A stretch of DNA of 39,418 nt from Candidatus Berkelbacteria bacterium (lineage in GTDB: Bacteria > Patescibacteriota > UBA1384 > XYA2-FULL-43-10 > 1-14-0-10-43-13), in contig JAPLVL010000035.1 in the NCBI GenBank assembly GCA_026397135.1, positions 1 through 39,418 on the forward strand, in the 5' to 3' direction. Below, piece after piece: positions 5,329-34,018 of the stretch; the stretch's first letter is position 1; each line of letters opens with the position of its first letter. Below the pieces are notes generated by a model. It was not told the origin of the DNA and searched no databases. It saw only the letters and a list, made by a program, of their open reading frames with translations. A program made the position numbers and the translations under genes.

Positions 5329-5781
5329 TTAGGATTTGCCGGCGCGATAGCCGTCGCTATAACCCTTGCTGTAGCAGCGGTATACTTCATCCGTGACATG
5401 GAATGTGTAATGACTTGCCGTCGAATGAGATTTACCACTGATGGCATCGTTGAAAGCGTGATTGTATCCTTGCGAATACCAATCAACGAACCTGATACCG
5501 GAGAGGCTAAAGAAGCGTCCATACTTCGGCTTTGGCCGAGTTACCTTGGGGGCGACGCGAACCTGTTGGACGACAACCTTGGGCCGGGGGGCGGCGTTGG
5601 CACAGCTACTGCAGCGAGCTTGGTTTCCTACGATACCAACGCCCTGCTGAAGCGGGCCGCTAATCCGCTTGTTGCAGCGATAGCAACGGAACGGTTTGCT
5701 TGTCCTGCAAACCGGACAGTAGCTAAAGTGACTCTTGATCGAGCGGCCGCAATTGGCACACTGAATCATTGTATAGGCCAT
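5329..5781 (-). CDS. Double zinc-ribbon protein with Tyr/Gly-rich C-terminal region
   Basis: Start at MAYTMIQ (5781) preceded by strong SD AAAGGAGGAAAAG; CxxC pairs CANC/CPVC and CYRC/CSSC; C-term 'QGYNHAFNDAISGKS...KGYSDGYRAGKS'. Confidence 0.8.
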   Translation of the reverse strand: MAYTMIQCANCGRSIKSHFSYCPVCRTSKPFRCYRCNKRISGPLQQGVGIVGNQARCSSCANAAPRPKVVVQQVRVAPKVTRPKPKYGRFFSLSGIRFVDWYSQGYNHAFNDAISGKSHSTASHYTFHVTDEVYRCYSKGYSDGYRAGKS

Positions 5782-5893
5782 CTTTTCCTCCTTTTGAGCG
5801 AGATGGCTCTCAAAACGCATTACTGGCATAGCGATTTGCCAAGTAACGTACGGGACTTCGTCCCGCTAAGTATTTAATCACTATTATATCGAG

Positions 5894-5932
5894 CTGTCAA
5901 GAGGGGTGATCCGCGGTTACTCCTCTTGACAG
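5894..5932. promoter_or_regulatory. 39-bp imperfect palindrome (11-bp perfect arms) between divergent zinc-ribbon and vWA genes; each arm carries a TTGACA -35-like box
   Basis: CTGTCAAGAGG...CCTCTTGACAG. + strand TTGACA(5926-5931)-N17-TAATGT; - strand TTGACA-N17-TTAAAT. Confidence 0.6.
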
Positions 5933-6057
5933 TATTTGAAGTAAGTGTTAATGTAATTTCGGCTAGTGTAGCTTGACAACTGAATAGAGAGTGTTGGTAT
6001 TTCGTGTGAGAAATTTTCATCTCAGACGATCCGCGACAGCGTCCAAAGGAGGACATC

Positions 6058-6805
6058 ATGTCTGTCTATGTTACCCCGTTTTCACCCGATCAAGAGACGA
6101 AGGGAACTCCGACCTTGATCAATCTGCTCGTCGATGGGTCCGGATCGATGGATCCGATCAAACCCGAGCTGGTTGCAAGCATCAATCAGGATTTCCTCGG
6201 TGCACTGCAAGCGATTAACGACACCGAGAAAAAGACAGTCCGCGTTCACGCCGAAGTCTTCAACTGAAATATTCCCGCTGATCACCGGTTTTCGCGCACC
6301 CTGGCAACTACGGGCCAACGAAGTAATTGAAGCACAGCTTCAGCTGGGCGAGCTCGGAAACACAGCTCTTTACAAGTGCATCAAAACTGGATTTGGACAT
6401 TTGATCCAAGCCAGTACTGACCTCGGTCAAAGTATGAACAAGAACACGAAGGCAAAGTTGATCGTTCTGACCGACGGCGCCAACAATCAACCTCCCTACA
6501 ACGAAGACGGGACGAGTCAGGTCTATCGGACCTTCAATCATCCGCAAGACTGGGTCACGACCGAGAAAATCCTGGTCTATTTCCGTACCGATTTGGTCGT
6601 TAGCGAAGAACAGTTCGTCGAGATCGCTGACGCCTGTGGCTTCAATGAGCTGATTATCTTTGATCAGCACAAGACGAACCGCGAAGCGCTCCGCAAGGAA
6701 ATCCGACGCGTCATCCATCTTCTGAGCAATCGGCGTGCCTTCGGGCATCAGTCGATGCCGGACGGAATCCTGACTCATACATTTGAGCCGTGTACCAGCT
6801 GGTAG
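6058..6805 (+). pseudogene. von Willebrand factor A (TerY/YegL-like) protein, interrupted by a +1 frameshift near 6265
   Basis: SD AAAGGAGG; MIDAS 'LVDGSGSM', 'TDGANNQ'. Frame 1 ends ...VHAEVFN* at 6267; homologous continuation EIFPLITGFRAPW...LLSNR lies in frame 2 (to 6805). Confidence 0.8.
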
Positions 6806-6837
6806 AATTTGAGCTGAGTATCAGCTGTTGATTCCCT

Positions 6838-6870
6838 GGGGGGCACTGAGTATCAGTGTCCCCCGTTTTC
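6838..6870 (+). terminator. Intrinsic terminator/attenuator hairpin between vWA and kinase genes
   Basis: GGGGGGCACTGA-GTA-TCAGTGTCCCCC then GTTTTC. Confidence 0.7.
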
Positions 6871-6893
6871 ATACACGCTGAAGGAGGTGTGAG

Positions 6894-7802
6894 ATGTATG
6901 TTCGAGTTGATGATGTCGTGTACGACCTGAAGAAAGAGTCAGAGTTAAAGGTCGGAGGTGAAGGAACTGTCTCGATGCTTTCGAATACGATGGCAGTCAA
7001 AATATACCATGACTACAATGAAGAGATGGAAGCAAAGTTGACTGAGTGTCTTGACTATAATGTGTATGCATCGGTTGAGGTAGCCAGTTTGACAAATTCG
7101 GGCTATTGCGTCGCAAACCAGATCGATTTGCGACGGACCGCTTCACTGTTCTGCCATTTGCACGATGCTATTGCGCAGATTCATTCTGGACCGTTCTGTA
7201 TAGGAGATCTCCGTGCTGCAAACATTATGTTTAAGCCGAGCACATCTGGTCCCTGGGATATTGCGATAATGGACGTTGACAGCTGGGAGGTATATATCAC
7301 CGATATTTCACAGGATAGATGGGGTTGCGAAGTTGACAACAGCAGATATCACTATTGTACGGCAATCCATGATGATGTAGTGCATCCTGATCTGATCAAT
7401 ACAAACTATTCGCAGCTTATGAAGTATCATGACTGGTATGCCTTTGCTCACCAACTGGCAACTTGTCTCCTTAAATGCAATCCATTTGAGGAGGGCCGAG
7501 TGGCTGGCATGACAGACATTGAGCGCAAGATCAAGGGAATTTCCTGCTTTTGCGGTTCTTTGGGAGGAGTTGCCCTGACTTTGGAAGAGCAAATAAATAT
7601 CAAGCGTCTGGGTAGTGACATGACTGGTCTCTTGCAGCGATGGTTGACTGGCAAGGAAAAAGGGGTATTTCCGCGGTCAGCTATTCTAGACTTCATACAG
7701 GGACTGTGTGTCTGCAGATCATGTGGATTACAGCACTTTGAGCGTCAACCTGGCGAAACACATTGTGTTCGGTGTGGAAATAGACTCGTCCTTCGTTGGT
7801 AA
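6894..7802 (+). CDS. Protein kinase-like protein with C-terminal zinc ribbon (TerY-P triad kinase, YegI-like)
   Basis: G-loop 'GGEGTVSML', 'MAVKIY', catalytic loop 'IGDLRAANIMF', DFG-equivalent 'IMDVDSW', C-term CRSC-x14-CVRC ribbon; SD AAGGAGGTG. Confidence 0.8.
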   Translation: MYVRVDDVVYDLKKESELKVGGEGTVSMLSNTMAVKIYHDYNEEMEAKLTECLDYNVYASVEVASLTNSGYCVANQIDLRRTASLFCHLHDAIAQIHSGPFCIGDLRAANIMFKPSTSGPWDIAIMDVDSWEVYITDISQDRWGCEVDNSRYHYCTAIHDDVVHPDLINTNYSQLMKYHDWYAFAHQLATCLLKCNPFEEGRVAGMTDIERKIKGISCFCGSLGGVALTLEEQINIKRLGSDMTGLLQRWLTGKEKGVFPRSAILDFIQGLCVCRSCGLQHFERQPGETHCVRCGNRLVLRW

Positions 7803-7810
7803 TGTTATCG

Positions 7811-7838
7811 GCCTGTGAGCTCTTCGGAGTTCACAGGC
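7811..7838 (+). promoter_or_regulatory. Very stable UUCG-capped mRNA hairpin between kinase and PP2C genes
   Basis: GCCTGTGAGCTC-TTCG-GAGTTCACAGGC, 12 bp with one G-U, no strong U tract. Confidence 0.7.
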
Positions 7839-7872
7839 ACAAATTTATTTAATATCTTCAGGCTGCTTAATT

Positions 7873-9075
7873 ATGAGCATCACAAGATATTCGATAGAAT
7901 ATCTCCAGAATTTTTTGGAATTGCGTGAAGAAGGAGAGACTGTGTATATTTCATCTGGAATCAAAATCCGAGGCGGCAAACATCCGTGTTGCCAAGATGC
8001 CCTATGTCAAGGTCAATACGAGACTAGCGACGGCGGGTATATTTGGTACGGAGCGATTGCTGATGGATGTGGTAGTGCAGTTGGCTCGCAATATGGTGCT
8101 GCGTTTCTTGTTTCCGAATACGAGCGGGCTGTGACTGAGTTATATGAAGCGGGACTTCGCGGCGAAGAATTGCTGGAAGAAATTGCAATTCGACTTTGCG
8201 AATCAATGTTTCGTTATGATTCGGTTTGTGCTGGCAGTGAGATATTTAGCTATGCAGGCAATGTTATCTCGGCCGAACTAACCGCAACAGTCTATGGCTA
8301 TGTGGCAGATTGCGATCGTATCGTCTTGCTTCTGGCGGGCGACGGTTACATCGGTATCAACGGGATTGGTGAAATTATCGACCAGCACAATGAAGCGGTT
8401 TATCCCGTTTATCTTCTGCAGACGCCCATGCACAGTTGGCGGAGTAACCTAAATCAGGTTTTTCACTTCGTTAATATGCCTACTTATCGCGTCGATAATC
8501 TGGTGCTGGCGACCGATGGGTTCTATGGCGGCAACGAATATTCCAGATTGTTTCATGATCCCAACATGCTAACGGATAAAATCGAGCGGGAAGCCTCAAG
8601 ATTTCCCTTTCCGAAGCATCGCTCGGATGACACATCGCTTCTGTCCTTGGCAAAGACGGACAATTGGAGTTCGGATCCTTTGCCACTCGATGCGACAAAT
8701 CGGATCAAGCGTAGTCTGGAAGATCGCTCAGTTGATCAGGTCTTGAGTCTGGGAGCGCACATCGAGACCCAGTTGATTCGCAAAGAGTGCGAGGATCCGT
8801 TTGCCAACGAAGAAGTTGACTCTTCCCTGGCAGGTATTACGGTTTATCCTGATCCTAGCTGGTCACTCGAAAAGCAGTTCGTGAAGCACGAACCTGCCGA
8901 AGAACCCAAAATTGCGGAACCCGAGGCCGAAAGTCCCTTCGTCCTCTGGGAAGAAGAAGAGGCCGAGGATTCACTTGATGAAAGGGAGCGATCCATGGGA
9001 CTGACTCTGATTCGTTGTGCTATTCAGATGCGAGCCATGGTTCAAATTGGTGAACTTCTCGAACAGCTAAAATAA
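7873..9075 (+). CDS. PP2C-family protein phosphatase (TerY-P triad, YegK-like) with acidic C-terminal extension
   Basis: 'CCQDALCQGQY', metal motif 'YGAIADGCGSAVGSQYGA', 'LLLAGDGYIGIN', 'LVLATDGFYGG'. Confidence 0.8.
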   Translation: MSITRYSIEYLQNFLELREEGETVYISSGIKIRGGKHPCCQDALCQGQYETSDGGYIWYGAIADGCGSAVGSQYGAAFLVSEYERAVTELYEAGLRGEELLEEIAIRLCESMFRYDSVCAGSEIFSYAGNVISAELTATVYGYVADCDRIVLLLAGDGYIGINGIGEIIDQHNEAVYPVYLLQTPMHSWRSNLNQVFHFVNMPTYRVDNLVLATDGFYGGNEYSRLFHDPNMLTDKIEREASRFPFPKHRSDDTSLLSLAKTDNWSSDPLPLDATNRIKRSLEDRSVDQVLSLGAHIETQLIRKECEDPFANEEVDSSLAGITVYPDPSWSLEKQFVKHEPAEEPKIAEPEAESPFVLWEEEEAEDSLDERERSMGLTLIRCAIQMRAMVQIGELLEQLK

Positions 9076-9080
9076 TACCT

Positions 9081-9113
9081 GGCCCCGGACAATTTGTCTG
9101 GGGCCTTCTTTGT
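9081..9113 (+). terminator. Strong intrinsic terminator after PP2C gene
   Basis: GGCCCCGGACAatttTGTCTGGGGCC followed by TTCTTTGT. Confidence 0.85.
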
Positions 9114-9229
9114 AATAGAATCGTGTCAGACTTCGATTAAGTTTCAACTATCAGACGCGGAACTATAGTATTTATTTCCAAATTGTGTTATATCGGTGCT
9201 AGCAGCAAAGAGCTGCAAAGGAGGGGGCG

Positions 9230-10261
9230 ATGAACAAGAGAATCGCGGTTTTGACTGGTGGCGGATGTGCGCCAGGACTTGATCCGGCGATTGAGGGTTT
9301 GGTAAACAGCCTTTCGCCAGAGTATGGGGTGATTGGAATCGTGGGTGGCTGGAAAAGCATCCGTGACGGAGCACCTGTGACAATGGATCTGACTGATGCG
9401 GTCGTTCGTGGCTGGGTTCGGAATAGCGGTACCTCGATCAAAACTTCCAGGATCAAGCCGTTGAACGAGAAGAATCTGGATCAGATCGCGTCGAGCTACT
9501 ATTCGCTTGGGATCGACGGAATTGTGGCAGCCGGCGGTGACGACACCCTGGGCAATGCCCTTTTCCTGAAGCAGGCTGGCTTCTCGGTCATCGGGATCCC
9601 GAAAACGATGGATCTCGACCTCAAAGACACCGACTATTCTGTCGGGTTCCAGAGTTATGTTGAAAGCTGCCGCCAAATCGTTAATGACTACATCGAAACA
9701 CTGAAGTCGCATTCGCGAGTTGGTGTGGTCGAAGTCTTCGGGCGCGATTCCGGATTTACGGCTGCTGAGCTTGGTATCGTGACTGATGCTTGCTATATCG
9801 GCATCCCGGAGATCGATATCGACCTTCAGAATCTTCGCCAGCAAGTGGCCTCGTCTTTCTATGATCAGGGCTGGGCTCTGGTTGTCGTCAGCGAAGCTGT
9901 CAACTTGCCTGGTGAGCGGGATTTGAAGCCCGGGGATGACGGTCATATCGAGCTGAAGGAACGGGAGGCTGGCAAACTGATCGCCCTGATGATTCATGAG
10001 CTGACTGGTCTCGAGACGAAATCGACACAGTTGGACCACCCTTTCCGCGGCCGGATCATCAGCTATGATGCGATGGCAGGTTTTCGCCTCGGACTCAAGG
10101 CGGCTGAGATGGTACGGCAGGATCAGTGGGGCGAAATGATCGCAATCCATGGTGAAAAAATGGACGCGGTTCCGCTGGAAAACTTCCAGGGTACGCGTCG
10201 GATTGATCCTGATGACTATCGCTATGAGCTTGTCACTGGCCGAAACTCAGGGATGTTTTAG
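9230..10261 (+). CDS. Phosphofructokinase family protein, probably PPi-dependent type
   Basis: 'TGGGCAPGLDPAIEGLV', 'AAGGDDTLGNA' (GGDD signature of PPi-PFK), 'GIPKTMDLDLKDTDYSVGF'; SD AAAGGAGGGGGCG. Confidence 0.8.
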   Translation: MNKRIAVLTGGGCAPGLDPAIEGLVNSLSPEYGVIGIVGGWKSIRDGAPVTMDLTDAVVRGWVRNSGTSIKTSRIKPLNEKNLDQIASSYYSLGIDGIVAAGGDDTLGNALFLKQAGFSVIGIPKTMDLDLKDTDYSVGFQSYVESCRQIVNDYIETLKSHSRVGVVEVFGRDSGFTAAELGIVTDACYIGIPEIDIDLQNLRQQVASSFYDQGWALVVVSEAVNLPGERDLKPGDDGHIELKEREAGKLIALMIHELTGLETKSTQLDHPFRGRIISYDAMAGFRLGLKAAEMVRQDQWGEMIAIHGEKMDAVPLENFQGTRRIDPDDYRYELVTGRNSGMF

Positions 10262-10297
10262 CTCCATTCAAGCATGTAGCAGACGAGGGGTAATGCT

Positions 10298-10672
10298 ATG
10301 ACTCAGGGTGGTTGTTCGAGGATATTTATTGCTCTGCCGATTGTATTTTTCATTGCTTGTTATCTCAAGCATGGAGATTACTTTGGATGGGTAATTCTGG
10401 CTGGGCTGATTGTATTTATTTTCATCGAGCGAATGTTCTTCTACGAGGAACCGAAGCAGGGAGGCCCGATTCCTGACCCTTGCAAGCGAATCAACAATCC
10501 CTTCGATACGGGTTGGGATGGTAAATGCGATCCCAGAGTCTGTCCTTTTCATGCCACAACCTGTTGGCGGCATGATATGGAGGAGATCGAAAAAACTTCG
10601 AGTGGGATAGTTGAAATCACTCGTTCGCGATGCCGTCGATGCGGCAGAGAATACACATCAGAGTTAAGTTAG
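10298..10672 (+). CDS. Small two-TM protein with Cys-rich cytosolic tail, hypothetical
   Basis: Two hydrophobic segments then CKRI..CDPRVCPFHATTC...CRRCGREY; terminator follows. Confidence 0.6.
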   Translation: MTQGGCSRIFIALPIVFFIACYLKHGDYFGWVILAGLIVFIFIERMFFYEEPKQGGPIPDPCKRINNPFDTGWDGKCDPRVCPFHATTCWRHDMEEIEKTSSGIVEITRSRCRRCGREYTSELS

Positions 10673-10680
10673 ATTTTTCT

Positions 10681-10712
10681 GGCCGGTTGCATTATTGCTG
10701 CCGGCCCTTTTT
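10681..10712 (+). terminator. Intrinsic terminator closing the island
   Basis: GGCCGGTTGCAttatTGCTGCCGGCC then CTTTTT. Confidence 0.85.
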
Positions 10713-16496: not shown

Positions 16497-18512
16497 TTAT
16501 TTGACGATGATCCCAGTATTGCTAAACCAACCCCATTTGGCTTTGAATGTTGCGATATCATATGTTTTGCCAGGATAGCCATATCCAGAATCGGTAACCG
16601 AAAAAGAAGTCGGATTATCGACTGTGCCGGTAAATCCTTTGACCACTTGAACATGCATACCGTTGACACCGTGGATGCTTTTGCCGGCAGGAGTTTTCCA
16701 ATTAACTTCATATGTCGGCCAGGCACCGTTGACCCACCAAATAATGATCGGATTTCCTGCTGAAATCTGAGTTGCTAGGTCTGAAACGGTCATGTTTGTC
16801 TTGACTTCATTTGAAACCCCATATGACGAAAGGGCTTTTGCGATGGGATCCCAATACGAACCATAGCCCCAGCCAATATTATCGGCTTTGCCGCTCAAAT
16901 CGCCAACGATTCCAACGTCGGGATCTCCCCAGATTGCTCCGCCCTCTGCCCATGTTCCCGACCATGGTGTTGTGTCGTAACCGACTTTGCTGATAATGCT
17001 AGATTCAGAAGCGCTGATTCCGCGATAAGCAAGTGCACTTCGAGCTGCTGAAATCATACACGAATACATGTAAGCCTGATGATAGGCTGGAACATTCAAA
17101 CTAGCGCTCTGATCTGCGGTAGTAAATGAATATGTATACGGTTGTCTGGAGTTTATACCGGAAATGCTAACAACCCCGCTCGCAATTGAAACAGTATATT
17201 TTGTCGAATAAGCGAGTTTGGAGTGCGCGAAGCTGACCGTGTTACCACCCCAGCTGAAAGTTCCTGTGGCGGCGGGCGTGATTGAAAACTTTGATTCAGC
17301 TGAAGCTTGATTTACCGCTTGATTGAAAGTCAAAGAGATTTTCTGATCGACAGAAATCTTGGTCCCTCCGCTTGACGGACTTGTGGAGCTAACAACTACT
17401 GCACCAATGGTTGTGAAATCAAATGAAATTTCCTCTTCGAGCGGGCTTTTGTCGGCTGCCAGGGCAGAAGTTCCCAATTTGACAGTATATTTAGTTTCTT
17501 TCGAAAGCAGTGTTGGGTGGAAAGTCATCGTTCTGTTGTCGCTCCATTCAAATACTCCCATGACTTGCGGATTGATGGAAAAAGCCTTTTCTGTTGAGCT
17601 TTTGTCCATATCCTGTAAAAATTCCAGGACAATCGGATCCGTTGTCAGTACTTGGTCCGAAGTTGGCGAATACTTTTTCAAGCCAGGTGCATCGATCGTT
17701 TCAAAATTTAAGTTCTTGATCTCATCTTTGCTTAATTGAGTTTTATTGCCTGTCTTGTAATTGATTTGATTAATTTCGCGATAAATTTTCAGATTGTACT
17801 GTGTCCCCTTCTTGAATGGGCTTTTGGGAGTCAGTGAATAAACCAGGCCAACTCTTTCAACAGATAAATCTACGACAGGTGTTGTTTCAAAATCAAAAGT
17901 TGCAATTTCCGGAATTGTGGAATCACTGGTAGCTGTAATAACCTGATTGGGCAATATCCCCTTGTCTCCATCCGCAAAAGAGACCGATGAAATCTCGGGC
18001 AGGTCTGGCGTCTCGATACTAAAAAGGTATTTACTCTCGTCTCTCTCCAAAGCGTTCCGGATTCCTGTGACCGAAATGGTATATCGGGTAGATAGATCAG
18101 GCGAAATATCAGGACTAAAAGTTAGTTTCGACTCATGTCCACCCCAAACGGATTGGCTCAATTTCCAACTGCCTGGAAGCTGGGGGGAAATTTCATAGTG
18201 GAGTGACTTGGGGTTTACAAAATGATTAAACTCGGCAACGACAGGCCCTTTGTCTGAAAACATGGTGGAATTGAGTGCTGGATCGGTTGGATATACTACT
18301 TTTGGTGTCAGATAAAAGTAAACAGTAGTGGTCGCAAATAAAAGAAGCATGAGTAGTAGATTTATCAGAAGTTTGTGGCGGAAGCGCCAATTGGAGCGGA
18401 AATGTTTCGGAAGAAATATATACAAAAGCCAGAAAATAACAAAACAGCAAATCAGGCTAAATCCAAAATAGAAAAGAAATTGTTGTGATGGTGGAAAATG
18501 AAGAAATTTCAT
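16497..18512 (-). CDS. Membrane-anchored protein with Ig-like (Big_5-type) domains and C-terminal C39-like cysteine peptidase
   Basis: Start MKFLHFPPS (18512), two N-terminal TMs, repeated 'P.....KY.V.......F' Ig modules, C-term 'VPAYHQAYMYSCMISAARSALAY...GMHVQVVKGF...VTDSGYG'. Confidence 0.75.
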   Translation of the reverse strand: MKFLHFPPSQQFLFYFGFSLICCFVIFWLLYIFLPKHFRSNWRFRHKLLINLLLMLLLFATTTVYFYLTPKVVYPTDPALNSTMFSDKGPVVAEFNHFVNPKSLHYEISPQLPGSWKLSQSVWGGHESKLTFSPDISPDLSTRYTISVTGIRNALERDESKYLFSIETPDLPEISSVSFADGDKGILPNQVITATSDSTIPEIATFDFETTPVVDLSVERVGLVYSLTPKSPFKKGTQYNLKIYREINQINYKTGNKTQLSKDEIKNLNFETIDAPGLKKYSPTSDQVLTTDPIVLEFLQDMDKSSTEKAFSINPQVMGVFEWSDNRTMTFHPTLLSKETKYTVKLGTSALAADKSPLEEEISFDFTTIGAVVVSSTSPSSGGTKISVDQKISLTFNQAVNQASAESKFSITPAATGTFSWGGNTVSFAHSKLAYSTKYTVSIASGVVSISGINSRQPYTYSFTTADQSASLNVPAYHQAYMYSCMISAARSALAYRGISASESSIISKVGYDTTPWSGTWAEGGAIWGDPDVGIVGDLSGKADNIGWGYGSYWDPIAKALSSYGVSNEVKTNMTVSDLATQISAGNPIIIWWVNGAWPTYEVNWKTPAGKSIHGVNGMHVQVVKGFTGTVDNPTSFSVTDSGYGYPGKTYDIATFKAKWGWFSNTGIIVK

Positions 18513-21415
18513 TATTTCTCCCAGGCTGTTGCAATCTTGGAAACGGAAGTGAAAACAACTGGGCCAGTATCTAGGTCTGATCGGAATGGTTTCATACAGT
18601 TGAAGAGATCTGTTACTCTTTGTTGTTCGGCAGAATTGAACCAATGCGGATGTGAGAGAAATGTGATTTGTTTTTTCGAATCAAGGGTAGCGGAAGTATT
18701 GTTTTGGTCGAATCGCTCGATCAGCTCCTTGGCCGAGAACCAGTAGGAATCTGCGCCGTTGTCTGGAATTTCCAGAATAGAGAGGTTGTCAGTGCCGGAC
18801 TTGTTTTGATCGCTTGCTGAAGGGTAATATGGCATCGTCGTTGCGAGCAAATTCCAGGGGCCAGGTAAATTGTTTTTACCAAAGGTATATTTGGTTCGGC
18901 CGGAACTGTCAGAACTGAAATTAAGATTGGCCAAGGTGTTCAATACGGTAGCATCAGCAAACCAAGCGCCAGCTCGGAAATATATCGGGTTTGGCAAGCC
19001 ATTGTCAGAGAAAATCTGCCTTGATTTATTGACAATCAGAGTAATCTCGTCCGGCGTGTATGAGGAAAGTGGTACGCCATAACCGTCGCCGTTGTCACCC
19101 CAATTCGGTGTTTGGTGTGGAGTCACTCCAGCGCTAGTCACCAAATCGTAAAACAGATGCAAATGCATCCCAATATCATCACCCTTGTCCAATCTGGCTT
19201 TGATCCAGTCGGTCAGTTGTGAGACTCGCCCCTTCGAAATGGTGTCTGTAGTATAAATCCTAGGATTCCAGTAGTGTGTGAGCGGCATATCATTCTGATC
19301 CGCAATATCAGTCATCGCCTTCAGATAATCATCCTTTGCGTCATAGCCCTCCCAATCAATAGTCCAGGAAACATAGAGCGGCTCTGAGACTGCAAATCCG
19401 CAATTTTGACTTTGATATGTCTTGTCGCCATCGACAATATCGGCAACAATTTGATAAGTCCCAGGCTTGAAACCGGACAGAGGAATTGAAGTTTCGTATG
19501 TGCCGGTATCGACAAAAGTCATAAATCCTGATTTGGTCGTGTTCAAAATCTGCCAATTCACGACTGGGTTTTTCAGGTCAAGATCAGTATTGGCCGAAAA
19601 AGTGAGAGCGGCAATATTATTATACTCGTCAAATATGTTCCATCTTTTGCCAACTGTTGCTCTAACAGGGTAGTTCTCAATATCTTTCAGCTCAACTTGA
19701 TATTTAATCTTGGAAGATTCATCCTTTTTTGTGGCAACCAGTGGCGCACTAGTCTTGAAATCACCGAAATATATGTAGAGATTTATATTTTCATTATTTG
19801 GCTTGATTGTCTCTGGTAGAGCAACAGTCAGGGTTGTATCGTTTCGATTCCAGCCGTTTAGGAGTGTATAGTCAATTTGCTTTGAATTCTTGCCGTCGAA
19901 GAATACAATTGCAATGTCGCGGCCAAAACTATCAACCTTGTACTTGGAAATGAGCGAAGTATGATCTATTACAATATTAATCTTGTTGTCCTTGACCAGG
20001 CCGGTGAAGGAATCTTTGTTCGTGACTCGAATATTCTGGCGGTAAATGTAATCACTGTTCCACCAGGTGATTTTCATGTTTTGGCGAAGACTCGTCTGCA
20101 CTTCGGAAACGATCGTGGGGGAAATTAACAAAACTACGGCAGAAACCAAAATTGCGATCAAAAGAATATGTCGCTTCTTGACCAATCTCTTCAGTCTCGG
20201 TTTATCGTTAGTACCAAGGAAGAAAAACCGCCGGAGTCTCCACCATTCTTTTCTGCCCGAAGTGGCAACTTCTTCGCCCAATTTGACGACAGGCAATGAT
20301 TCCAAGATTCGCTCCTGCTCTTCGTGAGAATCTCTAATAAGCGTTAGGCTAAGTTTGAAATTAAACGGCAGAAATGTAGCGAGCGCGAGTGAGAGCAGAA
20401 CTGTCGCGATAAACAAAATCAAGACTATCAGGGGAGAGCTAAACTTGATCCCACCGGCCATTTGGTAAAAGCTAAGCAGGAAAATGTGCGTCCAGAAAAT
20501 CGCATAAGCATTTTGTCCGAAGGTGAGAAAGAGGTCGCGCAGAAGTGGCATCCTGGTGTAGCTTTTGAAAGCATAAAAGAGGTAGCAAAGAGCAAGGGTA
20601 GCGGTGATTCCGGTCAAAAGGAAAGTTGGCATTGGCGGCCAGCGCAGAAAAAACTCAGAAATTAGGCCAAATTTCCAAAGCAGAAGAGAAAAGGCCGAGA
20701 GGAAAAGGAGCGAAACAATGGTAGCCAAGCGGAAAAATTGAAATTTGCGAGTAAGCCCCTCGGTTGACAGCAATTTCATCCCGACATAGAGTCCGACGAA
20801 GAAAACAGGTGCATAATGAAAAATCGGAAAACGATACAAGCCGACGCCGCCAACAAAGAAGGCTTTCCAAGGAAGAAGGAAGCTAAATACTGGGACAAAA
20901 TTCAAAAGATAACCGATCAGATAGATGACTAAGCAGCTGATAATTGTAAGCATGAGAGATTTTCCAATTTTCGCAATCTGTTTTTGGAACAGCATCACGA
21001 TAAGGGAGAAGAAAATCAGAGGAGGAATGTACTCTGTAAACGATGGGAGTATGCGGAAGGATAGAATATTAATGATTAATTGATTGCGGGAGACAAAATC
21101 TGAGGTCACAAGATCTCTTGCGACAACAAAAAAAGCTAATATATAGTAAGATATTAGCAATAGAATGATTCGTCGCATAATCCGCTTGGCGGCGTCATAG
21201 CGATCTATGCCATCGCGTAAGTAAGCAACGGACATTGTGGCGCCCGAGACGAAGAGAAACATGACGAAGCAGAACAAATTACCAAGTGATTCGAGGCTTA
21301 GTATGAATGAATTGTCGCGGTCATGAAAAAAATAGACAGAGTGGGCTAGAACCATCAACAAGACGGCAATGCCTCTCAAAAGGTCTAATATAAAAAACCG
21401 ACGTTTTGAATTCAT
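18512..21415 (-). CDS. Multidomain membrane acyltransferase (acyltransferase-3/DUF1624-like) + DUF2341-like + Ig-like + NodB-like polysaccharide deacetylase
   Basis: Start MNSKRRFFILDLLRGIAVLLMVLAHS; ~10 TM; then 'WWNSDYIYRQNIRVTN...'; C-term 'VSWTIDWEGYDAKDDYLKAM...DIGMHLHLFYD'. Confidence 0.7.
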   Translation of the reverse strand: MNSKRRFFILDLLRGIAVLLMVLAHSVYFFHDRDNSFILSLESLGNLFCFVMFLFVSGATMSVAYLRDGIDRYDAAKRIMRRIILLLISYYILAFFVVARDLVTSDFVSRNQLIINILSFRILPSFTEYIPPLIFFSLIVMLFQKQIAKIGKSLMLTIISCLVIYLIGYLLNFVPVFSFLLPWKAFFVGGVGLYRFPIFHYAPVFFVGLYVGMKLLSTEGLTRKFQFFRLATIVSLLFLSAFSLLLWKFGLISEFFLRWPPMPTFLLTGITATLALCYLFYAFKSYTRMPLLRDLFLTFGQNAYAIFWTHIFLLSFYQMAGGIKFSSPLIVLILFIATVLLSLALATFLPFNFKLSLTLIRDSHEEQERILESLPVVKLGEEVATSGRKEWWRLRRFFFLGTNDKPRLKRLVKKRHILLIAILVSAVVLLISPTIVSEVQTSLRQNMKITWWNSDYIYRQNIRVTNKDSFTGLVKDNKINIVIDHTSLISKYKVDSFGRDIAIVFFDGKNSKQIDYTLLNGWNRNDTTLTVALPETIKPNNENINLYIYFGDFKTSAPLVATKKDESSKIKYQVELKDIENYPVRATVGKRWNIFDEYNNIAALTFSANTDLDLKNPVVNWQILNTTKSGFMTFVDTGTYETSIPLSGFKPGTYQIVADIVDGDKTYQSQNCGFAVSEPLYVSWTIDWEGYDAKDDYLKAMTDIADQNDMPLTHYWNPRIYTTDTISKGRVSQLTDWIKARLDKGDDIGMHLHLFYDLVTSAGVTPHQTPNWGDNGDGYGVPLSSYTPDEITLIVNKSRQIFSDNGLPNPIYFRAGAWFADATVLNTLANLNFSSDSSGRTKYTFGKNNLPGPWNLLATTMPYYPSASDQNKSGTDNLSILEIPDNGADSYWFSAKELIERFDQNNTSATLDSKKQITFLSHPHWFNSAEQQRVTDLFNCMKPFRSDLDTGPVVFTSVSKIATAWEK

Positions 21416-21454
21416 CTGTTTCTTTCTTTGATGATTGTCCATATAAATATTATA

Positions 21455-23389
21455 ATGCAAAAAACTAATAAAAACAAAAATATTCAAATTTCGATAGTTT
21501 CTCCTCTGTATAACGAAGAGGCAGTTATTGAATTGTTTTATATTAAAATTAAAGAAATTTTGAATCATTTCGAGAATTCCGAACTTGTACTGGTAAACGA
21601 CGGCTCGACTGATCAGACTTTTGCAAAAATTAATAAATTGTCTCGTCATGATTCCCGAATCAAAATTATAAGCCTTGTCACGAACCAAGGACAATCAAAA
21701 GCGATATTGGCTGGGATTAAAACATCTCGTGGAGAAGCTATTGTAGTGATTGATAGTGATTTGCAAGATCCGCCGAATTTGATAAATCATATGTACGAGG
21801 AATATGAAAAAGGAGCGAAGATTGTGATGGCGTCCCGAATTTCGCGGTCAGATAGCAGATTTAAGATTTTGACGGCGAAGCTGTTTTATTTCCTTCTGAA
21901 TACGCTTACAAGGAGAAAATTTTCACCGAATTTCGGCGAGTTTTATCTATTTGATCGAAATTTGTTACCACAAATATTGCAGTACGAGGATTGTCATCCA
22001 ATGCTACGATTCTTACTTCCAAATTTGGGCCTACGATTTGCTGAGGTGAAATACAAAAGATTGCCTAGAACAAGAGGAGAATCACACTATTCAATTCTCT
22101 CTATGCTTCGGCTGGCCTGGCAATCAATCTGTTTCTCTCGGAAATTTAAGCCGTCGGAACCAGCCAAACGAGTGGCTATTATTGGTGCTGGCATAACTGG
22201 GCTTGCGCTCGGGTATTTCCTCTCAAAACAAAATTTCCAGGTCACTGTTTACGAAAAACAAGACGAAATCGGAGGATTACTTCAGATATCAGAGTCGCAA
22301 GGAGTCCTTTTTGAGAAATATTATCATCATTTTTTTTCATCTGATTCATCGCTAATCTCATTGCTCGATGACTTGGGACTTAAATCGAATATTAGATGGC
22401 ACAAAAGCAATATCGCATTTCTTGCAAATAAACACTTTTATGATTTTAACAGTCCGAACGACCTAATCTCGCTTCCCTTCCTATCTCTTTGGGCAAAGTT
22501 TCGATTCGGGCTGGGCTACCTTTTCGTCAAAATCTCACCGTATCGTTTGCTAAATTTGGCAAAAACGGCTTCGAGATTAATTATATTTACATTTGGTCTG
22601 GAGAATTACAGCAAAATTTGGCACCCACTTCTGGCCGGTAAATTTGGCACAGAGGCGGAAAAAGTCGCCGCGAGTTGGTTTGCGGCGAGGATCAAGACCA
22701 GGGCGAGCTCAAATAGCGGAAAAGGCGAATATTTGGGATATCTGGCTGGGAGTTTCAAAGCGTTGCTGACAAGATTGGAAAAAAGCATTCGTTTAAACGG
22801 TGGTGAAATTATCCTGAATTCAAAAATTGAAAAGATTACAAAGAAAAATGGTAAATTCCTGGTGAACAAAAATGAATTTGATTTCGTAGTATCAACAACG
22901 CCAACTTTTTCCAGGAACAGAAACACAAAATATTTAGGGGTAGTTTGCGTCGTCCTGACTCTGAGCCAAAAGTTAACTGATTATTACTGGGTAAACATAT
23001 TGGATGAGAGATTGCCTTTCAAGGTGATGGTCGAGCACACGAATTTGATCGGAGCAGAAGCAAATCGGCACCTTGTATATTTGGCTGAGTATCTCGACCC
23101 TAATTCTTTGAGATATTCTGCTGGTGACAATGAATTTGTGACGGAATATTTGGCCACTCTTGAGAGTATTTTCCCGGGAGTCAGCCAGAGTATGATCTCT
23201 TCGACTGTTTTTCGATCCCCTATTGCACAGCCAGTGATTACGAAAAATTTCAAACAACTGAAATCTGAAACAGACATCCCAAATTACTTTGAGATTACTA
23301 TGGCCCACATTTACCCAGAAGACCGGGGCTTGAATTACGGGATCAAAATGGCAAAGGAGTTGTCCCAGAAAATTGTTGATTGCTGTTAG
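21455..23389 (+). CDS. Fusion: GT2 glycosyltransferase (DPM1-like) + FAD/NAD(P)-dependent amine-oxidase/UGM-like oxidoreductase
   Basis: 'ISIVSPLYNEEAVIELF...VLVNDGSTDQT...DSDLQDPP' then 'KRVAIIGAGITGLALGYFLSKQNFQVTVYEKQDEIGGLL'. Confidence 0.8.
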   Translation: MQKTNKNKNIQISIVSPLYNEEAVIELFYIKIKEILNHFENSELVLVNDGSTDQTFAKINKLSRHDSRIKIISLVTNQGQSKAILAGIKTSRGEAIVVIDSDLQDPPNLINHMYEEYEKGAKIVMASRISRSDSRFKILTAKLFYFLLNTLTRRKFSPNFGEFYLFDRNLLPQILQYEDCHPMLRFLLPNLGLRFAEVKYKRLPRTRGESHYSILSMLRLAWQSICFSRKFKPSEPAKRVAIIGAGITGLALGYFLSKQNFQVTVYEKQDEIGGLLQISESQGVLFEKYYHHFFSSDSSLISLLDDLGLKSNIRWHKSNIAFLANKHFYDFNSPNDLISLPFLSLWAKFRFGLGYLFVKISPYRLLNLAKTASRLIIFTFGLENYSKIWHPLLAGKFGTEAEKVAASWFAARIKTRASSNSGKGEYLGYLAGSFKALLTRLEKSIRLNGGEIILNSKIEKITKKNGKFLVNKNEFDFVVSTTPTFSRNRNTKYLGVVCVVLTLSQKLTDYYWVNILDERLPFKVMVEHTNLIGAEANRHLVYLAEYLDPNSLRYSAGDNEFVTEYLATLESIFPGVSQSMISSTVFRSPIAQPVITKNFKQLKSETDIPNYFEITMAHIYPEDRGLNYGIKMAKELSQKIVDCC

Positions 23390-31907: not shown

Positions 31908-34018
31908 CTAATACTCTCTTAGTGATGCTTTAAATTTATCTGTAATACTTTGTATGACTTTTTTAATAATCTGATTTGCTTCTGAATCTGTCATCGTCTT
32001 GTTCATATTCTGAATATATAGATGAAAGGCAACATTTTTCTTGTTAGTACCAAATTTGTCACTTGAGAACTCGTCAAAAAGCTCAACTCTGCAAATCTGA
32101 TCAGATGCAGAATATATCTCGTCGATAATTTCATCTGGATTAACCATCGTATCTACTATAAAAGCGAGGTCGCGGGTCAGAGAAGGATACTTGGAAATAG
32201 AGCGATAATGAATTTTCTTTGTAACGATTACGAAATCTGGATAAACATTGTTTTTAATCAGTCCATCAACTAGCAGTTGGACATTAATCTCAGATGTGAA
32301 GATTAGAGGCTTCTTGATCTTAAATCGCTCAAGCTCATCTCGAGTGTGCTCTCTTATTTCAAAACTAGATTTGGCTACCCCTGTCAAGATGCTGATATTT
32401 TCGATGACTGTCTCGATTTCCTTTTTGGCATTTTTACCAGCGGTTGCAACTGAGAGAAATACTGTTTCCTCCTCCTTGGTAAAACCATGTCCAATCTCAA
32501 AAATTAGAATTGGATCAAATGTTGGATTCTTGGCAACCACCTTGAGCAGTCCAGGGATAAGAGATCGGCGAAGAAATTTATTCTCGGGCTGAATTGGGTT
32601 AGCAACCTCCAAAAGATCACTAGAATCGGTTCCCAATACTTTCAGATCTAATTCACTCATGAAGGCGTATCCGTAAATCTCAGAAAAACCTGATTTTACC
32701 AAGACATCCTTCAGATATTCTTTGTAGTAATAGGGAGATTTCTTGGGCGGCTTGGTAATCTCAATACTTGCCTTCGGAATGTTGTCAAAACCATATATAC
32801 GAGCTACTTCCTCGGCTAAATCCTCCCAGATCGAAATGTCGTGCCTCCAAGAAGGGACGGTGACCGTATCATTATTTACAACAAAACCTCGAGAATCAGA
32901 GTCGCCGCTTTCTTTAGCGCGTTTTCGATATTGCCTGAATCTATCCCCCGTTCGAATCGATAGCTCGCATCGGAACTAAGATTTAAGTTTTTGGCTGTTT
33001 TTCTGATACTACGGCGTTCAAATTCAGCTGCTTCGATAATAATCTCAGAAGTTTTGTCATCTACTTCGGAATTACTACCACCCATAACTCCGGCAATCGC
33101 AATCGCTTCTTCTCTGTCTGCAATTACAATCATACCTTCGTCTAGTGCTCGCAAATTTCCATCTAGTGTTACAATGCCCTCGCCAAAATGCGCTGGCCGA
33201 ATATTAATTCCACCTTTCAATTTTGTAGCGTCAAAGGCATGAAGTGGCTGACCCAAGTCGAGTAAAATATAATTTGTTACATCGACAATATTGTTGATCG
33301 GGCGGAAACCGGAAGAAGTCAAGCGATCTTTCAGCCATTTTGGTGACTCTGCTGGCTTTACGCCACTAATCTTAAGGCCGTAATATTGTGGACAGAGAGA
33401 TGAATCGACGACGGAAATTTCAATCTCCTTAGCCTCTTTGTTAATTTTTAGTTCGTAATTTGATTTCTTCAGCTCCTTTTTTAATAGGGCTTTGAGTTCT
33501 CGAGCCACGCCGATATGTGAGAGCAAGTCGCCTCTGTTTGGAGTTATTTCAATATCAAAAACAGCGTCAGATTTAATATATTTATTTAGCGGCTGGCCAA
33601 TTTCCCATTTGGAATCCAGAATCATAATTCCAGAGTGGTCGCTGCCTAATCCAAGTTCATCGGCAGCACAGAGCATTCCACTGGACTCAATCCCGCGAAT
33701 TTCTGCTTTTTTGATCACGAAACCCTCGCCAAGTACGCTACCAATTTGAGCAAGTGGCACTTTCTGGCATGGGGCAATATTTGGCGCACCGCAAACAATT
33801 TGCAGTTCTTCCTCTCCATTCCAAACTGTCGCAATTTGCAATTTGTCGGCATTTGGATGCTTCTTGACCTCTCGAATTTCAGCTACTACAACCTTGCTAT
33901 CAAGCACTTCTCCAAAAGAGTCCACGGCAGTACCAGACAAGCTCAAAAGGTCAGCTAGTTTTTCGTTTTCGAGGTCTAAATCAATATAATCTTGTAACCA
34001 TGATTTTATAATTTTCAT
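31908..34018 (-). pseudogene. pheT: Phenylalanyl-tRNA synthetase beta subunit, split by frameshift/internal deletion near 32885
   Basis: N-part 34018..32876 ends ATLILEVLL*; C-part continues in another frame GFVVNNDTVTVPSWRHDISIWEDLAEEVARIYGFDNIP...; FDX-ACB at C-term. B5 segment absent. Confidence 0.88.

Follow-up and report, generated by a model that had tools for sequence, protein, structure and literature searches.

A probable horizontally acquired TerY-P-like phospho-signalling island between korC and rarA in a Patescibacterium genome

In a single genome we identified a TerY-P-like island that contains a three-gene switch of a known kind. We consider it probable that the island represents a horizontally acquired, stand-alone phospho-signalling module, and the site that it occupies, with korC on one side and rarA on the other, is variable. 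The sequence analysed, referred to here as the window, comprises contig positions 1-39418 of a 1.14 Mb genome (67 contigs, 98% complete). The label Patescibacteria, for this genome and for the comparison genomes, was assigned from small genome size and gene content. Modules of the TerY-P type are mostly considered in connection with responses to tellurite and phages. As described by Anantharaman, Iyer and Aravind in 2012 (via PMC11090510), TerY-P combines a vWA protein, a PP2C phosphatase and a kinase with a C-terminal zinc ribbon, and its proposed role is that of a metal-sensing phosphorylation switch (PMC11090510). Anti-phage activity has been reported for a TerY-P system of P. aeruginosa (PMC10889362).

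Organization and origin of the island

The features of the island are given in Table 1; all six genes lie at the originally described location. Elsewhere the window encodes acyl-CoA synthetase-like and 2-oxoacid:ferredoxin oxidoreductase genes, rarA, an Elp3-like gene and a ribosomal cluster. Two further reading frames are of note for their domain content: one ORF at 21428-23389 combines a family 2 glycosyltransferase domain with a flavin amine oxidase-like domain located after it, and a long ORF at 18512-21694 contains acyltransferase and DUF2334 domains.

Table 1. Features of the island in window coordinates
Feature	Position	Strand	Remarks
Double zinc-ribbon protein P0005	5329..5829	-	two CxxC-CxxC ribbons, C-terminal Y-x2-GY repeat region; divergent
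Near-perfect palindrome, intergenic (divergent zinc-ribbon/vWA genes)	5894..5932	.	inverted repeat I17; fold z = -6.8
TerY-like vWA coding sequence, frameshifted	6058..6805	+	MIDAS residues; independent HMM 42.8 bits
Terminator-like hairpin 3' of vWA	6837..6865	+	z = -4.95
Ser/Thr-type kinase P0001, YegI/TerY-P type	6894..7802	+	C-terminal CxxC...CxxC putative zinc ribbon; independent HMM 63.3 bits
Hairpin 3' of kinase gene	7811..7838	+	z = -6.3
PP2C phosphatase P0002	7873..9075	+	Pfam PP2C_2 4.7e-10; independent HMM 66.2 bits
Terminator-like hairpin 3' of PP2C	9081..9105	+	z = -5.5
Phosphofructokinase (PFK) P0003, PPi-type residues	9230..10261	+	PF00365 1.2e-55; GGDD, PKTMD
Two-TM protein P0004, Cys-rich tail	10298..10672	+	sequence features
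Hairpin then T run, island end	10681..10706	+	fold analysis

The gene set had originally been described as bounded by terminators. By their fold z-scores, strong hairpins do lie around the set; they also lie within it, following the vWA, kinase and PP2C genes as well as the last gene. Hairpins after single genes argue against one transcript, and the island seems to comprise several transcription units, one of them shared by the PFK and two-TM genes.

Several observations mark the island as probably imported. It is absent from the sampled relatives: the PP2C occurs only in the window genome among 55 sampled genomes of the class, and was not found in 60 relatives, which are largely the other 54 of that sample. 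The island is flanked by korC and rarA, and in a genome of the same family (G001) korABC and rarA are syntenic with their order kept, yet genes for an ABC transporter and a giant Fn3-like protein lie between rarA and korC; this alternative cargo identifies a variable site. Third-position GC is 0.60-0.63 in the zinc-ribbon, vWA and PFK genes, compared to 0.33-0.50 in 28 other window genes. The kinase, PP2C and two-TM genes do not deviate (0.46-0.47), and the island may thus be mosaic, its genes perhaps differing in origin. A repeat scan recognised no direct repeats of the insertion-end type. With the window proteins as queries, no related locus was found in plasmids, phages or viral contigs, the phage search returning a single weak fragment, for the kinase, and genome contigs searched with the kinase likewise gave no related locus. 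No related island was found that would support joint travel of the six genes.

The signalling genes match the TerY-P triad in domain content

The original prediction placed consecutive vWA, kinase and PP2C genes here, and all three are present with the expected domains and residues, except that the vWA lacks a continuous reading frame (discussed below). Pfam detected the phosphatase, and both the vWA (0.0012) and the kinase (0.032) fell short of its cut-offs. For this reason we built HMMs from the triads of five other Patescibacteria and of E. coli, excluding the window sequences. The resulting scores (Table 1) are to be read as bit scores rather than E-values, as the latter refer to a database of few proteins; other window proteins scored approximately zero or less, apart from the zinc-ribbon protein, which gave a weak 6.6 bits with the kinase profile.

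The conserved residues agree with these assignments. When read through the frameshift, the vWA has the MIDAS residues DGSGS, T and TDG. The kinase keeps K36, D105 and D127 and ends in CRSCGLQHFERQPGETHCVRCG, the CxxC...CxxC of the putative zinc ribbon. An alignment shows that its Cys columns are shared with the kinases of L028 and L029, two triad loci described below. In the PP2C, alignment identifies conserved residues D64, G65, D157, D215, D252 and D253, and the protein has an extra C-terminal region of ~140 residues. With a PP2C, Ser/Thr kinase residues and a kinase C-terminal zinc ribbon, the set is predicted to belong to the TerY-P triad. Structure prediction, which had been proposed as a check, was run from single sequences for the kinase (pLDDT 33) and the zinc-ribbon protein, and confidence was too low for use in both cases. 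We take all three signalling genes to be real, and their domain content fits the TerY-P triad, pending the vWA frame.

Compared to known systems, the identification as TerY-P type holds at the domain level: vWA, PP2C and a kinase with a C-terminal zinc ribbon are adjacent, a composition matching the published description (PMC11090510). The island differs in that its vWA is frameshifted, a PFK lies alongside, and no ter, CoCoNuT/McrBC or nuclease genes were recognised nearby. The absence of Ter genes noted originally holds for the neighbours scanned, where restriction genes were likewise not recognised, and no PADLOC family matched under E 0.05. E. coli yegI/pphC/yegL are, as proposed, distant homologues of the triad. 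They share its three domains and conserved catalytic residues, however identity is ~19%, YegI has long C-terminal extensions, and the gene order is different.

The vWA gene is frameshifted as assembled

The vWA had been taken as an intact gene, and a +1 frameshift was missed. From its ATG at 6058 the frame runs to a TGA at 6265-6267, and the remainder, up to 6805, is in the +1 frame; this part is the second half of the vWA, with the MIDAS Thr and Asp. As assembled the gene is broken, and the module is therefore either decaying or mis-assembled in this genome. We also considered programmed +1 frameshifting, which would yield full-length vWA. The shift is exactly at the TGA stop, as such a mechanism would have it, but there is no slippery site or upstream SD-like element at the shift, folding there is unremarkable (z = -0.2), and AAC-TGA is not among the +1 slippery sites known to us. 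We rejected programmed frameshifting on these grounds as highly improbable. The same lack of a slippery site or stimulatory structure would fit a decaying remnant, that is, an island that was acquired and has been degrading from the vWA onward with its function lost, and the TerY-P clusters of H. pylori are often disrupted too (PMC4978471). Against decay, the kinase, PP2C, PFK and other island genes are intact, and a second gene on the same contig, pheT, is also frameshifted, pointing to assembly error instead. On balance we consider decay rather unlikely.

The pheT gene (31908-34018) is frameshifted near 32880, where it breaks after residue 380 and goes on in another frame, with sequence perhaps missing; the split could reflect faulty assembly or a genuine lesion. 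As an essential gene in most cases, pheT makes assembly error plausible for its own frameshift and for that of the vWA, with real mutation as the alternative.

Triads of other Patescibacteria and of viruses

A kinase of this type occurs in 7 of 380 Patescibacteria, the window genome included. Among the remaining six loci, L028 and L029 contain PP2C, kinase and vWA with a nicotinamidase-like gene before the vWA; L037-L039 also contain all three triad genes, two of them with a 660-residue protein between kinase and vWA; and L040 has a kinase without a PP2C or vWA match. NAD-related genes lie near the triads of L029, L037, L038 and L039. NrtR is near those of L029, L037 and L038, and adjoins a PP2C at the contig edge in L139; NAPRTase is near those of L037 and L039, with a weaker match in L029; NMN/NaMN adenylyltransferase-like genes are near those of L029, L037 and L039; and L029 also has an NAD kinase. 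NrtR was found in 7 of 192 sampled genomes, three of which have the kinase (G094, G155, G221), and in G155 the NrtR genes are far from the triad.

The arrangement is also seen in viral contigs. In L145:2822-8023 and L146:4859-9593, PP2C, kinase, an isochorismatase/nicotinamidase-family gene and vWA follow in order with small genes interspersed, and L146 has an NAD synthase upstream. Proteins related to the viral kinase and to the viral nicotinamidase-like protein are encoded ~2-11 kb apart in the phage records LR756500, LR745208 and LR756511 (462-595 kb) and in MT837596.

These NAD-linked clusters resemble the island in having the same triad with metabolic genes adjoining, and the two closest share the C-terminal ribbon of the kinase. 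They differ in their longer kinase and in carrying nicotinamidase-like, NrtR, NAPRTase or adenylyltransferase genes instead of a PFK. Neither NrtR nor NAPRTase was matched in the window genome, and thus the NAD theme does not explain the window.

The PFK and the other proposed partners

P0003 is the sole PFK of the genome. Its PFK_mixed match (3.1e-68) falls short of the model's own cut-off, and it carries GGDD and PKTMD when aligned to E. coli PfkA. We take Asp104 and Lys124 equivalents to be marks of the PPi type and Asp127 to be catalytic; all three are found along with the family match, so P0003 is a candidate PPi-type PFK whose phosphoryl donor is a prediction from residues. None of 60 sampled relatives has a PFK above the family cut-off, and other Patescibacteria PFKs are ~30% identical to P0003. 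Relatives in genome contigs of other phyla were selected for sharing at least one of six 8-residue words; the best 80 of the matches listed share no more than 48% identity over an 82-residue core. No kinase, vWA or PP2C of this type was found at any of these 80 loci within the stretches compared, several of which are short. Nor does a PFK lie beside the other Patescibacteria triads inspected.

The zinc-ribbon protein P0005 was under the cut-off for Pfam DZR (0.0017) and had four weak zinc-ribbon-type matches only in 191 other Patescibacteria (E of at least 9.7e-5), and P0004 had one weak match in 40 relatives (E 0.005). The PFK and the zinc-ribbon proteins had been put forward as system-specific partners of the triad, and neighbourhood conservation lends this no support for either. 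The partnership is not thereby refuted, the searches having turned up no closely related island.

Could the triad control the PFK? The kinase and PP2C would then act on the PFK or on its Cys-rich membrane neighbour, gating glycolytic flux. The genes are adjacent, no other PFK is available to the cell, and comparable Patescibacteria triads adjoin NAD enzymes; in L028 and L029 a nicotinamidase-like gene even separates kinase from vWA. Linkage of PFK and triad is not conserved at the 80 PFK loci or at the other triads inspected, however, and a hairpin separates PP2C from PFK. The switch may control the PFK, but in view of these points we regard this as improbable. We would give slightly less credence still to the broader proposal of a TerY-P-type switch coupled to an acquired PPi-type PFK, resulting in regulated glycolytic entry in a PFK-less Patescibacterium lineage. 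The PFK is most likely co-transported cargo, and it may give the cell an upper-glycolysis step.

Discussion

Our preferred reading is that of an acquired TerY-P-like module. We hypothesize that the kinase phosphorylates a target which the Mg2+-binding vWA protein presents to it, and that the PP2C would remove the phosphate from this target, with the zinc ribbon of the kinase as the probable sensing or nucleic-acid/metal-binding part. By analogy with characterised TerY-P systems, the output of the switch would be a stress or phage response.

The island extends TerY-P-like triads to the Patescibacteria, a group in which such kinases are rare. NAD genes often lie beside the triads of Patescibacteria and of some viruses, which suggests a metabolic output.
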